From assembly GCA_944372055.1 (NCBI GenBank), contig CALVYF010000008.1, positions 1 through 40,913 of the forward strand: 40,913 bases of DNA. Direction: 5' to 3'. Position numbers and translations under genes: made by a program. Below the pieces are notes generated by a model. The model had not been told where the DNA came from and made no database searches. It saw only the letters and a program-made list of their open reading frames with translations. This DNA comes from an uncultured Bacilli bacterium. GTDB lineage: Bacteria > Bacillota_I > Bacilli_A > RF39 > UBA660. Shown piece by piece: positions 2,913 to 15,788 of this stretch (its first letter is position 1; each line of letters begins with the position of its first letter).

Positions 2913-3644
2913 TTAATAATATCTATCTTCCATCTTTTTAGCATACTGTAAAACTCCTTCTCCTAAAGTATTAGAATGATTACTAATATTTTCAAAAAAA
3001 TGAATTGGAGTATAAGATGCTCTTAATTTGTCAATAACATAAGGTCTAACTAGCTCTAAGTTATAGGCAAGTAAATATTCTTCAATCATATCTTCAATTA
3101 AATGAGTAAACTCATGATGGTTAGATTGCCTGTGATAAGAAGAGAGAGTATAACTACTATCATCAAAAACGTATAATTTTTCATCACCATTTGCAACTCT
3201 ACCAAGCATAACGTTATAAGAATTCCAATCGTCAAGTAAAATGCCATTTTCATTAAAGATAGGAATCTTTTCTTCTATTTTTTGAAAATGTTCTAATGCT
3301 TTTTCTTTAGGAAGTTGAAAAACTGCTTCAGTAGTATTAGGAGAGGAAGCTTTTATATAGTCTCTAGCACATCCGATATAGTTTCCCTTACCGTCTCTTA
3401 CAAGATATTGACTTAATAAAATGGGACTGGTATAAGGAGACAATTGAATTAACTTTTCTAAGGTCTCTTCATCAGGAAAAAAGACCTCTTCACCACTTAA
3501 ACCAGACTCACTTAAATATAGTTTTACTGTTAATATACAATCATCACCATAAACTTTATAACATTTACCGCTGGCACCAGCATCTAAATAATCAGTTTTA
3601 GGATAAATAAAATACTCTTTACCATCGATATAAATAGGAACCAT
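2913..3644 (-). CDS. Atypical protein-kinase-like protein
   Basis: The 243-aa product is not a recognised named family but has the outline of a small kinase fold. It shows a glycine-rich loop AGASGKCYKV (22-31), a candidate ATP lysine K41 (TVKLY), a catalytic-loop-like LLDDWNSYNVML (137-148) that would place Asp138/139 and Asn144 where HRD...N normally lie, and FDD (160-162) in place of DFG. No membrane segment or secretion signal is visible. The start is ATG 3644, preceded by GAGGAGA. A longer in-frame extension to 3740 is hydrophobic only because it translates the promoter region, with a TATAAT box at 3673-3678. The target is unknown and the kinase assignment is an inference from motif order. 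Confidence 0.6.
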   Translation of the reverse strand: MVPIYIDGKEYFIYPKTDYLDAGASGKCYKVYGDDCILTVKLYLSESGLSGEEVFFPDEETLEKLIQLSPYTSPILLSQYLVRDGKGNYIGCARDYIKASSPNTTEAVFQLPKEKALEHFQKIEEKIPIFNENGILLDDWNSYNVMLGRVANGDEKLYVFDDSSYTLSSYHRQSNHHEFTHLIEDMIEEYLLAYNLELVRPYVIDKLRASYTPIHFFENISNHSNTLGEGVLQYAKKMEDRYY

Positions 3645-3672
3645 ACTATATCTCCTCGCTTTAAGGCTTATT

Positions 3673-3701
3673 ATTATACTATAAATATAAAGAAAATAAA
3701 A
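3673..3701 (-). promoter_or_regulatory. Candidate promoter of the kinase-like gene
   Basis: On the minus strand a perfect TATAAT (3673-3678) stands 17 bases from a weak TTTTAT (3696-3701). The expected transcript start lies about 20 bases before ATG 3644, which rules out the longer reading frame. Confidence 0.5.
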
Positions 3702-3812
3702 GATTGTAAATAAACAAATAAAAGAGTATGATAAAGTCAAAAGAAACTAGTGTGCTTAAAAACAAACAGAGATGTTTTATATAGATAAATTTTAAGTAAA
3801 GGACTATAGTTT

Positions 3813-6320
3813 ATGGAAAAGAAGAAATTAGGACAAAAAGAAATCGTAAAGCTATCAATTGAATTATTAGACAGAGTAGAAACAGTAGAAGAAATTGAAA
3901 ACATCTTAGGAGTAAAGATAACGAAAGAAACATTATCATTAATTGGTAAAGAATTAAATAACAGAAAAAGAAAAGCAACATCTGCAAAAAGGAAATATGC
4001 CGCAACAGGAAAAAGAGAATTAGTTGCTGAACAGAATGCTACGAATAAGAGACTAGAACTTACGTATCAAAAATTTCTTCAATTACGTAAGAAGGTATAT
4101 AACACAGTAACAGATACAAAAAGTCAAAAACAATTATTAATTGAAAATATCGAAGAAAGCAATTATTGGTTAGATAGAGAAACCAAGTTATTATTTGATA
4201 CATATCTAACTTCAAAAGTGCATAGAGACAGAATTGATCTATTAAGAGAATTAGCCTTTAGATATTTAGAGGATGTAGCAGAGCTATTAGATATAGAATT
4301 ATCTACAACGGAAAATATGCAAGAAATGGAAGCAGAGAAGAAAAATCCAACGAGAAAATACTTGATGCCTTGGTCTAAAACAATGCCTCCAACGAAAGAA
4401 ATGTATCAACCTTATGAAGAAAAACTAAAAGAAATCATCAATCGTGCAAATCGAAGTAAAACAATGATAAAACTTCTACAAGAACTAGAAGAAGTAGAAA
4501 GTATAGAATTATCAAAAGTAGATAGATTAGAAATAACTACAGAAGAATTATTAGAGAGTAGAGAATTCATAATACCAACAAATGAAATTGAAGAAAGATA
4601 TCAAAAATTTTTACAGGATATAGATAACGGAAAATACAACATATCTTTAATATCTAGCCTACAAAATGGACTACCAGAAGAAGTAAAAATACTATTAAAA
4701 GAAATGAAAACTCTACCAAGGTTTCAACTAGATGAAATGATAACATTAGCTAAACAGGTAATTAAAACCAAAAGAAATCAAATAGGAAAAAGTGATACAT
4801 CTGCTAAAGATACAGAAAAAAGATTCTTAAAACACTTAGAGACAGCAATTGAAGATATTAGACCTCTAATTTATATAGAAGATGAAGATACTAGGGCATA
4901 TTTTGATATTTTACAAGTTCTTTTAAATGATGATAGAAATTATGAATATATCAAGAAACTATTAGAAATTGGAGAGTTTAAAAATGCGAGACAAGCTATA
5001 AAAATAAAAGAAGGAAAAGGCAGAAAAAAAGTAAGGATTACTGAAAGAAAACATGTCACATTATATATTCTAGATCAATTTATTAAAAACTATAAACTAA
5101 AACTACTAAATCAAAAGAAAGATTATATAGAACCAAGTTATTATAAAGAAATATTAAAACAATTTATCAAACAAGGAGCAAGATTAACATCGAGAGAATT
5201 AATGGAATATAATCAAAGACTAGAAGAGTTTAGAGAATATATAAAAGGAAAAGGATATCAAAATACAAATCAAATATTACAAGATATTAATGAAATAAAT
5301 TATATTCATCCTATAACTAAAACTAAGAGTACGCCTAAATCTGAACAAAATAGAATAGATAAAGAACAAACCTATCAATATGCTTTAGACACAGGTGTTG
5401 CACAAAATAGGAATCGTAATTATCCTGAATTTATACCAAATGATACAGTTAAAACATTCCAAATGGAAGGCTTAGAGCCTTATGCATTTTCAATAGAGTA
5501 TCAAATGGATGGCAGTAGAAAAATAGGGGTTCATGTATTAGATACAACAAAAATTGTAAATGAGAATTCAGACTTTTTCAATGATATAAAAGAAGAATCT
5601 GAACAGCTTCCTAAATTAGATACTACAAGAATCTATCCTACATATTCTTTTCAAACAGGAATTGGTAACGATAATGAATTATATCACGGTGAAATTACTC
5701 CTGCGAATATCTTAATACAAAACTATTTCAGTGAAAGTGACCAAGAACAATATAGAAAATATCCTGAACTAAAAGAAATGGCCAATTGGCTTAGACTATT
5801 ACAAATAAATGCAGAAACAGAAAATAATGAGTATTTTCAAGGCAGTATGAAGGATTTAATTTCTAGTCATTTATCAAAAAAAATATCAAGTCGTTTAGAA
5901 GCAGGAAGAGTTCCCTTCATTTATAAGTCTGTATTACCAAATCAAGAAGAATTAATAGAAAGAAATCATAATAACACATGTGAGATATTATCAAAAATTC
6001 CTAAACCAACAGCCCATAGAATTTATGATATTTTAGATCAAAAGGAACCAACATCTACCTATTACATTCCTAATAAGACAGAATTAAGTAAAATAGAAAC
6101 AAATTCAATGACATTAGAAGGAACATATTTATTAGAAATACTACATAGAATACAAGAACAACGATATAATCCAGACGAAGCAGGAGAAGAGGTAAAAACA
6201 TTGTTACAAGAGTTAAACAGTAATCATGAATATGTACCATCTTGCTTAAGCAGTCATAATGATAAACAGGTTTATAGAATGGTAAAATCATATAAACAAC
6301 AACACAAAGGACAAAATTGA
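3813..6320 (+). CDS. 835-aa protein with degenerate RNase II/R-type (RNB) C-terminal domain
   Basis: Residues 1 to about 530 are charged, lysine/glutamate-rich and mainly helical, with no recognised domain. Residues 538-835 follow the order of an RNB exoribonuclease domain: SIEYQMDG then GVHVLD (572-577; family GVHIAD), VPFIYK (700-705; family VPFIYR), then QRYNP and a last helix ending VYRMVKSY (family HRLIRTY). The metal-binding aspartates of the family motif D-x5-D-x-DD are not visible in IPNDTVKTFQMEGLEPYAFS, and the SPIRRY RNA-binding motif is replaced by CLSSHNDKQ. It would therefore bind RNA or protein rather than cut RNA, if the relation holds. The start ATG follows AAAGGA by nine bases. 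The homology call is by eye only. Confidence 0.55.
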   Translation: MEKKKLGQKEIVKLSIELLDRVETVEEIENILGVKITKETLSLIGKELNNRKRKATSAKRKYAATGKRELVAEQNATNKRLELTYQKFLQLRKKVYNTVTDTKSQKQLLIENIEESNYWLDRETKLLFDTYLTSKVHRDRIDLLRELAFRYLEDVAELLDIELSTTENMQEMEAEKKNPTRKYLMPWSKTMPPTKEMYQPYEEKLKEIINRANRSKTMIKLLQELEEVESIELSKVDRLEITTEELLESREFIIPTNEIEERYQKFLQDIDNGKYNISLISSLQNGLPEEVKILLKEMKTLPRFQLDEMITLAKQVIKTKRNQIGKSDTSAKDTEKRFLKHLETAIEDIRPLIYIEDEDTRAYFDILQVLLNDDRNYEYIKKLLEIGEFKNARQAIKIKEGKGRKKVRITERKHVTLYILDQFIKNYKLKLLNQKKDYIEPSYYKEILKQFIKQGARLTSRELMEYNQRLEEFREYIKGKGYQNTNQILQDINEINYIHPITKTKSTPKSEQNRIDKEQTYQYALDTGVAQNRNRNYPEFIPNDTVKTFQMEGLEPYAFSIEYQMDGSRKIGVHVLDTTKIVNENSDFFNDIKEESEQLPKLDTTRIYPTYSFQTGIGNDNELYHGEITPANILIQNYFSESDQEQYRKYPELKEMANWLRLLQINAETENNEYFQGSMKDLISSHLSKKISSRLEAGRVPFIYKSVLPNQEELIERNHNNTCEILSKIPKPTAHRIYDILDQKEPTSTYYIPNKTELSKIETNSMTLEGTYLLEILHRIQEQRYNPDEAGEEVKTLLQELNSNHEYVPSCLSSHNDKQVYRMVKSYKQQHKGQN

Positions 6321-6335
6321 CAATTGTCCTTTTTA
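6306..6335 (+). terminator. Terminator of the RNB-like gene
   Basis: Nine-bp perfect stem AAAGGACAA (6306-6314) with TTGTCCTTT (6324-6332) and a short T run. Its left arm overlaps the last codons of the gene. Confidence 0.8.
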
Positions 6336-6386: not shown

Positions 6387-6406
6387 TTTGTTAGAAAGTG
6401 AAGATT

Positions 6407-7197
6407 ATGAAATATAAACTTATTGCAATGGATTTTGATGGGACCTTATTAACAGATGATAAAAAAGTAAGCCCTAAAACAGAAAAAGTATTACGAGAAT
6501 TAAAAAAAGAAGGTTACTATATCGTTGGAGCAACAGCTAGAACTTTAGATGGATTAAGGGATGTTGTACCAATTGATATGTTTAACTATATTATTATTAA
6601 CAATGGGGTTTCTATATATAATCCAGAGGAAGACACAGATGAATGGATGGGTTTTTTAAAACAACAAGAAGCAGAAAAAATTACGAAAGCGATAGAAGAA
6701 TGTGCTACTCAAATAGATATAATATCAGGAAACAAGTACTATATTTATAAACAAAAAAGAAAAGTAATCTACCATTCATAATCGATATCGATTCTGTTAG
6801 TGAAGTACATGAAAAAATTGCCAGAATGAATATTTTTCTAAAGCCAGGAGAAGAAGCAAGAAAGCATTATAAATGGATAAGTACTAACTTTCCGGATATT
6901 AATTGTTTTGTAATGCAGGACTCAAAAGACGACAGGCAATGGTTAATTATTAATCCACAAAATATAAATAAGTCACATACTTTAAAGCATCTAGGTGACA
7001 ATCTAGGAGTTTCTTCGGAGGAAATGATTTTCTTTGGAGACGGGCTAAATGATTTGGAGATAATCGAAAGTGTAGGTTTAGGTGTAGCCATGGGAAATGC
7101 TCTTCCCGAAGTAAAAGAACAAGCAAAAGCAATAACAACTTCTAATGAAGAAGATGGTATTGCAGAGTTTGTATTAACATTAAAGAAAAAAAGATAA
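6407..7197 (+). pseudogene. Cof-type HAD hydrolase split by one frameshift
   Basis: Two adjacent reading frames together give a normal-length (about 263 aa) Cof-like HAD phosphatase. The first part has motif I MDFDGTLLTDD and runs to a stop at 6781; the second has motif IV FFGDGLNDLEII. Reading one base earlier across the A tract at 6753-6763 restores continuous protein (KKKSNLPFIIDIDSV) into the second frame, so a single A is missing relative to the intact gene. Such enzymes dephosphorylate sugar phosphates or flavin intermediates. There is no other damage, which suggests a very recent mutation, a phase-variable tract or a sequencing error. ATG 6407 follows AAAGTG and gives the usual MKYKLIAMDFDGT start; an in-frame GTG at 6398 is less likely. 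Confidence 0.85.
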
Positions 7198-12280: not shown

Positions 12281-12979
12281 ATGAATAGTATATTGTTAAG
12301 AGAATTAAAAACGAAAGAAGAAGTGCATGAAATATTCCATCGTCAAACAGAACATGATTTAACAGAATTAGCAAAAATTATTGAAAGAGATTATCCAGAG
12401 GATATATTACTAGATTTTAATTTAGAAGAATATTGGTTGAAAGCAACACCGATTTCATTGAATCAAGGTAAAAAGTATTCGATAGGTGATAAACCAGATT
12501 ATAAATTAATAAGGCAAGAAGAATTAAAAGTTTTAGATCACTATGTGACATTAAAAATATTAGAGAGTCTAGCACAAAAAGATTCTATATTAAAAGTACT
12601 TTTTAATAAAGAAGATTTAGAGATATTTACCTCTGGAAATACAGAAAAATATGAAGAAAGAAAAGATTCTCTATATACCAGTGAAGAAATCAAAGAAATA
12701 CTAAAATGTGACGAATTTGCACCTTCAAGAGTTCATTTTATTATGAATGGAATAAAATCATGTAGACTATGTGACGTTATTAGTACATACTTAGATCATG
12801 ATACTCCGTTCACAACCAGAATCTATCTGTCACCCAACGCATTTTATACAAATCAATTAGACCATAATGGGAAGAAAGAATGGATGTGGGCAGTATACGA
12901 TTATATAGACTTTTATGGTGACCAAGAGGGAACAAAAACTATACCATATGGTAAGAAAAAAGGACAAAAGAAGAATTGA
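12281..12979 (+). CDS. Hypothetical protein, 232 aa, in the uvrB operon
   Basis: Not recognised. It starts one base after the uvrB stop and ends inside the TTG start of the radical SAM gene, so the three genes are read together. The protein is soluble and rich in charged residues. Around residue 160 it has a CRLC pair, followed by a hydrophobic, aromatic region (FTTRIYLSPNAFYTN, EWMWAVYDYIDFYGD) and a lysine-rich tail. The CxxC pair alone does not identify a metal site. Coupling to uvrB may be only transcriptional. Confidence 0.7.
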   Translation: MNSILLRELKTKEEVHEIFHRQTEHDLTELAKIIERDYPEDILLDFNLEEYWLKATPISLNQGKKYSIGDKPDYKLIRQEELKVLDHYVTLKILESLAQKDSILKVLFNKEDLEIFTSGNTEKYEERKDSLYTSEEIKEILKCDEFAPSRVHFIMNGIKSCRLCDVISTYLDHDTPFTTRIYLSPNAFYTNQLDHNGKKEWMWAVYDYIDFYGDQEGTKTIPYGKKKGQKKN

Positions 12980-13868: not shown

Positions 13869-15788
13869 ATGTATAATTGGAATTATATCAATAGCTTTAG
13901 AGCGAGTTATCCAAGTGACAAAAAATATCGAGAGATATTAGAGAATCCTAAGTTATTAAATATGTTAGAAAAAGAGTATCTAGCTAAATATAGTATGGAT
14001 GCGGATGTTTACTATTTAGCTTTAAAAGAATCACTAGATCATTATGTAGCAATGAAAATTGCTAAAGATAAAAGGTTTACAGAAACAGAAGAGTTTAAAA
14101 ATTATGCACAATATTTGAAAAGACTTGTACAACAAAACAAAGAAAATTATATGGGAATAGCATTATATATAGAACCAAGTATTAATATTGTTTTTAATTA
14201 CTTAGATGAAGAAACACTAAACCAAATATATCCCAATAATGTGTTAAAAAGTCATCGCGAATATAACAAAAGAATATATGATAGAATTTTTAGAAAGTTA
14301 GAAGAAAATGCAATGGTAACATCAGAAGAGTTATCCTTGGCGAGTATTTATCTAGATAATGTCAAAGACTTTAAAAGTGGAAGATATGAAACATATATAA
14401 AGTATATCTTTAGTCATCTAGATTCTATTAAATCAACCCCAGAATTAGCATCCGCCATTCTTTCTTTTTTACCCCACTTTTATAAAGAAGGAACAGAAAA
14501 TACTAGAACATTTATTGGTGGAAAAGATCGAGGAAATCCCATCAACTGGGCACATAGCATGGGTCTACACGGGTATACTTGCTTTGACTATAATGTCATT
14601 AATGCTATGAAACTGAATTCTTCTGCTTCTGCCAACAGTTCAAGAACTTTTCAAGAAAAAGATTTAATTTTTTTACTATTTGTAGAGAACCATGAATTAT
14701 CTCATCAAAGACAGGTGGTACAAACAAAAAATGAAGAAAGTTTTGAAGGAGCATCATATGAGTTGAATCAGATGCTACGAAGCACTTTTAATGATTATAG
14801 AAATAACCACGATAGTGATGAAATAGAGATAGATGCAGATGAAAGAGGATGGAAGAAAACAAGACAGTTCCTATCGAAATATTATAATGGAAAAGACAAA
14901 CAAGAATTAATGACAAAATGTTTTAAGAATGCACAAGCTGTAAATTGCAGAAGATCTTTTTCTGTAAAAATAAATCCTGTTACAAAAAAGGCATATAGAT
15001 ATATTGATTATGATATAAAGCACTTGTTAGAAGCAATCAAAACAAATCCTGAGAGCCTACAACAGTATCCTCATCTTGCAGCAATATTGACTACTTCTGG
15101 ACAAATAAATATAGACTACCTTTTCAACAATGTAATTACTCCAACCCCTGCAGGAAGAGAATTTTGTAATTTTATTTTAAACAATATTCCAGAACAAGTA
15201 GTAATAGCTGCTATAAACAGTGGAAAATATACAGCTAGACAAGTAAATAATCTAATAGAAAATTTTGTACAAGTTCCTCACTATAATGCACTAACCATGC
15301 GTGATTTAAAAAAGACAGATTTAAATACATTTAAAGACACAGTTTCACGATATAAAATAGAAGAAAATGGAATGTTAGATAGAGTATATAATAGTTACTT
15401 TATTGAATGCTCCCAACAATTAATGAAATTTTCAACAATACTAGAGGTAGCAAAGAAAAAATATGATTATTTTGACCAATCATACGTAGATAGCTTATAT
15501 AGATTTTTTATAGAACATTATTATGTAGAAATGTTAGAAAATATAGAAAGACCAAATATGGAATCAATTAGTCAAGTAATGACAAAGTATCAACAATCAG
15601 ACAATAAAATTTTAATTTATTTAGCCAAATATACAATGAGTTATTTAAATAGAAATACAAATCAAGCAAATCAGAGCTTCGCACAAGCATCAGATAAACA
15701 GGATATAAACAATCAATTAAACGATATGTTAACAAGTATGGATAATAATATAGTAGGATCAAAAGAGCCTACTACAACAAAAAAATAA
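13869..15788 (+). CDS. Putative zinc-metallopeptidase-like protein (HExxH), 639 aa
   Basis: No family is recognised, but two signals point to a zinc peptidase of gluzincin type. One is HELSH at residues 275-279, inside a predicted helix (LIFLLFVENHELSHQRQ). About 40 residues later comes EIEIDADERG (318-326), whose E320 or nearby acids could be the third ligand. Upstream lie mainly helical residues 1-220, including a PINWAHSMGLHGYTCFDYNVIN segment. Downstream are about 300 helical residues and a Gln/Asn-rich tail. No signal peptide or membrane segment is visible, so it is probably cytoplasmic. ATG 13869 follows AGGGTGAT. HExxH also occurs by chance, so activity is unproven. Confidence 0.55.
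   Translation: MYNWNYINSFRASYPSDKKYREILENPKLLNMLEKEYLAKYSMDADVYYLALKESLDHYVAMKIAKDKRFTETEEFKNYAQYLKRLVQQNKENYMGIALYIEPSINIVFNYLDEETLNQIYPNNVLKSHREYNKRIYDRIFRKLEENAMVTSEELSLASIYLDNVKDFKSGRYETYIKYIFSHLDSIKSTPELASAILSFLPHFYKEGTENTRTFIGGKDRGNPINWAHSMGLHGYTCFDYNVINAMKLNSSASANSSRTFQEKDLIFLLFVENHELSHQRQVVQTKNEESFEGASYELNQMLRSTFNDYRNNHDSDEIEIDADERGWKKTRQFLSKYYNGKDKQELMTKCFKNAQAVNCRRSFSVKINPVTKKAYRYIDYDIKHLLEAIKTNPESLQQYPHLAAILTTSGQINIDYLFNNVITPTPAGREFCNFILNNIPEQVVIAAINSGKYTARQVNNLIENFVQVPHYNALTMRDLKKTDLNTFKDTVSRYKIEENGMLDRVYNSYFIECSQQLMKFSTILEVAKKKYDYFDQSYVDSLYRFFIEHYYVEMLENIERPNMESISQVMTKYQQSDNKILIYLAKYTMSYLNRNTNQANQSFAQASDKQDINNQLNDMLTSMDNNIVGSKEPTTTKK

Follow-up and report, generated by a model that had tools for sequence, protein, structure and literature searches.

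The window analysed here, a stretch of 40,913 nucleotides from an uncultured, gut-type Bacilli bacterium, carries at positions 3813..6320 (+) the gene for an 835-residue pseudo-RNB protein. The open reading frame is intact, with an ATG at 3813 and a stop codon at 6318-6320, and the gene is present in a single copy in its own genome (100% self-match) and has an 83% identical orthologue in the sister species. A ribosome-binding-site-like AAAGGA was read directly in the sequence 9 bases 5′ of the ATG (3798..3803, +), and folding revealed a 9-bp hairpin, followed by a T-run, that overlaps the stop codon (6306..6332, +; dG –8.8, z –2.6). This hairpin was not among the terminators listed by the consensus scan, and is a probable terminator of the gene.

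Several other coding sequences were noticed in the window. Upstream of the gene, and divergent from it, a 275-residue protein without Pfam match (2913-3740, –) was conserved in three species of the genus. Downstream, a HAD-type hydrolase (Hydrolase_3; 6398-7197, +), which the sister species encodes as one intact protein of 266 aa (L095:9810-10607), was found split into two open reading frames (127 and 123 aa) that do not share a frame; this is a frameshift of either the gene itself or the assembly. Two more proteins without Pfam match, of 232 residues (12281-12979, +) and 639 residues (13869-15788, +), were placed in the neighbourhood of uvrB/uvrA and of a radical-SAM SPASM gene.

The single sequence of the pseudo-RNB protein gave nothing significant in Pfam, NCBIfam and PHROGs, or in the PDB by phmmer, and RNB was absent from its Pfam listing up to an E value of 10. 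When PF00773 was run over the genome, it gave this protein 9.9 bits, under the gathering cut-off of 29.3, and the match covered residues 558-588 at profile positions 23-53, exactly where the landmark belongs. Phage records presented no match to the protein, and the viral library gave significant matches only to giant-virus RNB enzymes. The AlphaFold model (mean pLDDT 81.6), whose underlying alignment included two semi-degenerate relatives, L045 and L054, revealed an RNB fold and no other predicted fold at residues 505-810 (5325..6242, +). By Foldseek, only structures of the RNase II/R family matched this model significantly, RNase R with 6.3e-8, and VIA-align superposed residues ~505-810 on M. 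genitalium RNase R (Z 20.1, 290 residues aligned) and on the yeast pseudonuclease Ssd1 (Z 19.4).

Relatives were gathered from whole genomes and then aligned, and the resulting 37-member family profile matched B. subtilis RNase R in the PDB with 1.1e-10 and fungal Ssd1 with 2.9e-3. Since this profile includes L045 and L054, each of which alone scores ~110 bits with PF00773, the RNase R test was repeated without them. By hhalign, the 35 degenerate members matched the canonical RNase R of the same bacterial family with 1.2e-7, while the 18 core members matched it with 2.7e-5 and matched 15 family-specific RNB proteins with 3.8e-16 over 445 columns; reversed or column-shuffled controls gave values of 0.13 to 0.97. 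Even when the profile was restricted to the eight closest relatives, RNase R was still ranked first in the PDB (0.021). Moreover, when the class was searched with the 37-member profile, one genome after another yielded its RNase R, matched over the RNB part. Residues 505-810 are thus almost certainly an RNB fold descended from an RNase II/R enzyme, and the sequence-only reading of a degenerate RNB domain preceded by a long helical region was borne out by profile, structure, phylogeny and synteny. Among the short motifs on which that reading relied, GVHVLD and VPFIYK proved to be true RNB landmarks in the right order (GVHIADVS and LPFIYRVH in RNase R). HVLD (residues 574-577; 5532..5543, +), the counterpart of RNase R HIAD, is kept in nearly all members, and alignment and conservation identified PFIY (residues 701-704; 5913..5924, +) as a retained landmark. 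Conversely, conservation of QRYNP and of the terminal VYRMVKSY is limited to close relatives, and neither is a general RNB landmark. The gene shows that a real homologue can escape Pfam and NCBIfam, RNB being found by family profiles and hhalign although the single sequence remained below threshold in Pfam.

In E. coli RNase II numbering, the metal-binding aspartates are D201, D207, D209 and D210, and the catalytic arginine is R500. All four aspartates and the SPIRRY arginine were present in the aligned canonical RNase R, and the equivalents of D201, D209, D210 and R500 were kept in 14 of the 15 family-specific RNB proteins, in which D207 is often replaced by E. In the window protein, none of the four positions is an aspartate. 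The metal-binding TID..D.DDA loop was reduced to a shortened remnant without the catalytic aspartates at residues 548-560 (TFQMEGLEPYAFS; 5454..5492, +), and in 35/35 members of the degenerate clade D207 was deleted and the D209-D210 (DDA) pair was absent because of this shortening. Similarly, the TSPIRRY loop of active RNB enzymes was shortened or deleted in 35/35 degenerate members, the deletion site being placed at residues ~758-767 of the window protein (6084..6113, +). The E390 position was variable across the alignment of canonical RNase R, family-specific RNB proteins and the degenerate clade. The semi-degenerate L045 and L054 kept the aspartate pair and carried NPLRQY in place of SPIRRY. 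The loss of the aspartate cluster and of SPIRRY, noticed from the letters alone, therefore holds for the window protein and for the whole 35-member clade, in which catalytic loss proceeded by deletion as well as substitution. Because both catalytic loops were removed and not merely changed, RNB-type catalysis is very unlikely, and the window protein is predicted with high confidence to lack it.

Except for a single hairpin, the front half of the protein is helical in the model, and the chain ends ~25 residues after the RNB fold; neither an OB fold nor a cold-shock or S1 domain was found in the model. Residues 1-250 (3813..4562, +) form long helices and are the least conserved part of the front half, and residues 251-360 (4563..4892, +) are likewise helical. 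They are followed by a conserved basic helical domain at residues 361-500 (4893..5312, +; net charge +10, pI 9.6), which is one of the most conserved regions of the protein, its most basic one and the one with the lowest dN/dS, and which is largely common to the active-type family-specific RNB proteins. The 530-residue front half, described earlier as unknown, is therefore not wholly private, since a helical domain preceding RNB, at residues ~334-463, is common to degenerate and active-type members. Comparison of the front halves only, by hhalign, gave 1.7e-6 for the core set and 3.1e-10 for the wide set, against 1e-3 and 3e-5, respectively, for block-shuffled controls, so that sequence support for front-half homology between degenerate and active-type proteins is good, not overwhelming. 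For the fold of this half, the best Foldseek E value was 0.056 and the best VIA-align match had a Z of 9.7 over 58 residues, while residues 358-501 matched a chain of the U2 5′ module with a Z of 8.9 over 106 residues; no fold is claimed, since these scores fall inside the tool's stated common range for helical proteins. Within the RNB part, residues 718-741 (NHNNTCEILSKIPKPTAHRIYDIL; 5964..6035, +) carry a helix motif, NHNxxCxxLSKIPKxxAHxIxxIL, that is conserved in the core group and that RNase R lacks. The RNB part of the window protein has a net charge of –17, compared with an average of –11 for the RNB regions of canonical RNase R of the same family; being acidic, as canonical ones likewise are, its charge is no argument for RNA binding by this part.

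Relatives were found in 31 of the 386 sampled genomes of the family (~8%) and in 17 of its 150 genera, a count that includes a few semi-degenerate ones, and this sparse presence indicates that the gene is dispensable for the group. Among the matches listed in the class-wide samples, full-length relatives of both the degenerate and the active-type kind occurred only in the same family, and the family profile detected no further full-length relative in a phylum sample of 195 genomes. A weak phylum match of 157 positions, placed in the helical part and in a 2193-residue frame, probably reflects coiled-coil similarity. The window's own genome also encodes an intact canonical RNase R (706-residue frame, PF00773 395 bits), and, in a sample of 117 genomes, canonical RNase R was also present wherever a degenerate member was known. 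In the genomes G004, G055, G114, G036, G104 and G113 of the family the RNB match was absent or weak; canonical RNase R may be absent from these genomes, whose assemblies are incomplete.

In a maximum-likelihood tree of the RNB region, the 35 degenerate members formed one clade (100/100) whose stem measures 1.6 changes per site and whose sisters are L045 and L054 (95/82), and this assemblage together with the family-specific RNB proteins split from canonical RNase R (100/98). The long branches of this tree call for caution on its inner order, and its history is supported by two independent observations, namely the common helical front domain and synteny. The family-specific RNB proteins, such as L067-L081, constitute a family-restricted class of 600-690 aa with a helical front domain and a mostly kept active site, and the 15 active-type relatives presented no CSD or S1 match in Pfam. 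These proteins with kept active site and the two intermediates are the path from RNase R. Accounting for this path, the family would have gained an RNB exonuclease paralogue with a helical front domain and no OB folds, frequently placed next to dnaB-dnaI. The branch that gave rise to the window gene would then have dropped both the arginine loop and the aspartate loop that binds metal, the fold and the helical front remaining under purifying selection. The window protein is not an RNase R and is best called a pseudo-RNB protein of the family-specific RNB lineage.

Synteny revealed a recurrent genomic context, since 7 of the 15 active-type genes, as well as the degenerate genes of at least six genera, adjoin dnaI, the active-type ones often directly downstream of it. 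Usually dnaB (DnaB_2/DnaD-like) precedes these dnaI-adjoining genes and often thrS follows them, the neighbours being separated by tens of bases. This dnaB-dnaI-X-thrS slot being common to degenerate and active-type genes, the loss most likely took place inside an existing gene. In B. subtilis, the place between dnaI and thrS is presumably occupied by ytxC; identity with YtxC was considered, and as PF08812 had no match over the cut-off in 60 genomes of the class, the coincidence stands as a positional remark only. In the window's genus, the gene instead follows ftsE, ftsX and the gene for a PcsB-like M23 peptidase, and a further group has the degenerate gene next to tex. Of the earlier description of a single gene with its own terminator, the single-gene part thus holds within the window's genus but not in other genera, where the gene is joined to dnaB-dnaI; the terminator is plausible for the window gene.

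Most active RNase II/R exoribonucleases contain CSD1, CSD2 and S1 domains. The window protein shares the RNB fold with RNase R (B. subtilis 8cdu, M. genitalium 7dic), its best structural and profile match, but lacks the HTH, CSD and S1 domains of that enzyme along with its catalytic residues. Inactive RNB proteins are known from other lineages: in the pseudonuclease Ssd1, RNA has an alternative, conserved site on the outer face of the cold-shock domains (PMC8934651), and fungal homologues of Dis3L2 have lost the active site on at least four occasions (PMC8097288). Like Ssd1, the window protein is the product of an intact, selected gene, has an RNB fold that lost the metal-binding acidic residues and is predicted inactive, descends from an active RNB enzyme and coexists with one encoded elsewhere in the genome; unlike Ssd1, which keeps both cold-shock and S1 domains, it has a helical front half in their place, its catalytic loops were deleted and not only substituted, and its origin is separate. 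In cyanobacteria, Zam is an RNB protein with a degenerate active site and intact OB domains (PMC9145284). Both Zam and the window protein are bacterial, have an extremely degenerate active site, are predicted inactive and coexist with an active RNB enzyme; whereas Zam keeps CSD1, CSD2 and S1 with conservation concentrated there, the window family has none of these and a helical domain instead, and the CSD/S1 domains with conserved CSD1 cysteines that characterize Zam are absent from the window protein model. Minimal RNB enzymes that are active also exist, such as D. radiodurans RNase II and H. volcanii RNase R (PMC12320835). Together with Dss1, which has front domains of its own, they resemble the window protein in combining RNB with reduced or unusual accessory domains, but they keep the active site, and the window front domain has no clear fold match. 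The literature yielded nothing on RNB proteins of this bacterial group, and no described family was found here to combine a pseudonuclease RNB domain with absent OB domains. The new protein type announced by the sequence-only reading is therefore upheld as to the fold and the lost site but is not wholly new, inactive RNB proteins with OB folds being known in Ssd1 and Zam.

Several other readings of the gene were weighed against this evidence. A chance resemblance to RNB, the true fold being something else, agrees with the silence of Pfam and NCBIfam on the single sequence, but the profile, structure, phylogeny and synteny tests all agree on RNB and have already refuted this reading, whose probability is negligible. 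That the gene is a pseudogene in decay would be consistent with its patchy distribution, with an in-frame TAG in the aligned stretch of one relative (G079) and with five TAA codons in the matched region of another (L034, G318:C16:9413-11599), which is possibly a decayed copy. Nevertheless, most members have intact long frames, many positions are invariant or nearly so among the 18 core members, and the dN/dS between the window species and the sister species, estimated by NG86, was 0.18 overall and 0.045 in residues 361-500, which makes decay highly improbable. It is also very unlikely that the protein is still a nuclease endowed with a new active site: H574, D577, H719, C723 and H735 are widely conserved and could be taken as its components, but H574 and D577 are also conserved in active RNase R, where they belong to the HIAD strand and not to the metal site, the clade as a whole has no conserved cluster of acidic residues, and the arginine loop has been deleted. 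It is possible, though doubtful, that the pseudonuclease has given up handling RNA and works as a protein scaffold, for example for the DnaB-DnaI helicase-loading machinery. The proximity of the gene to dnaI, within tens of bases in several genera and in both active-type and degenerate members, the helical front half devoid of OB folds, the deletion of loops along the RNA path and the lowest dN/dS lying outside the RNB part are all compatible with such a role; on the other hand, the dnaI link is not universal, as illustrated by the window's genus, where the gene lies alone after ftsE-ftsX and the PcsB-like M23 peptidase, and by the group near tex, and adjacency can be inherited without function.

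The reading that we favour, at a probability of roughly 0.6, is that of a predicted non-catalytic RNB-fold protein with a binding or regulatory role, acting in the manner of Ssd1 and Zam and built without OB domains. The basic helical domain (residues 361-500) and the remodelled RNB surface would bind a partner without cutting it, and this partner, in the likeliest case RNA (mRNA or rRNA) but possibly a protein, would thereby be regulated or shielded, much as happens with Ssd1. RNA is somewhat favoured as the main partner because of the ancestry of the protein and its basic helical domain, and it is in this sense that we infer the RNA-binding or regulatory role suggested earlier. It is also conceivable, though rather unlikely, that the RNB lineage of the replication operon (dnaB-dnaI) represents an OB-less exonuclease turned in place into a non-catalytic adaptor; if so, an RNA-decay fold would serve replication-initiation control or a link between replication and RNA in a family with reduced genomes.

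This architecture suggests that an RNB core with a helical domain can be worth retaining even when catalysis and OB domains are both gone. In this bacterial lineage the OB domains were lost before the active site, unlike in Ssd1 and Zam, which retain the OB-fold domains to which their non-nuclease function is ascribed, and the transition is visible stepwise, from RNase R through OB-less active-type RNB proteins and semi-degenerate forms to a fully degenerate, selected clade, so that the passage to a pseudonuclease is now testable in bacterial proteins. Finally, one active-type RNB paralogue, L077 (143-2173, –), has lost the DD pair (FEGALS) and carries TTPVRNY instead of TSPIRRY, which, judging from these motifs, is probably a further, independent loss of catalysis.
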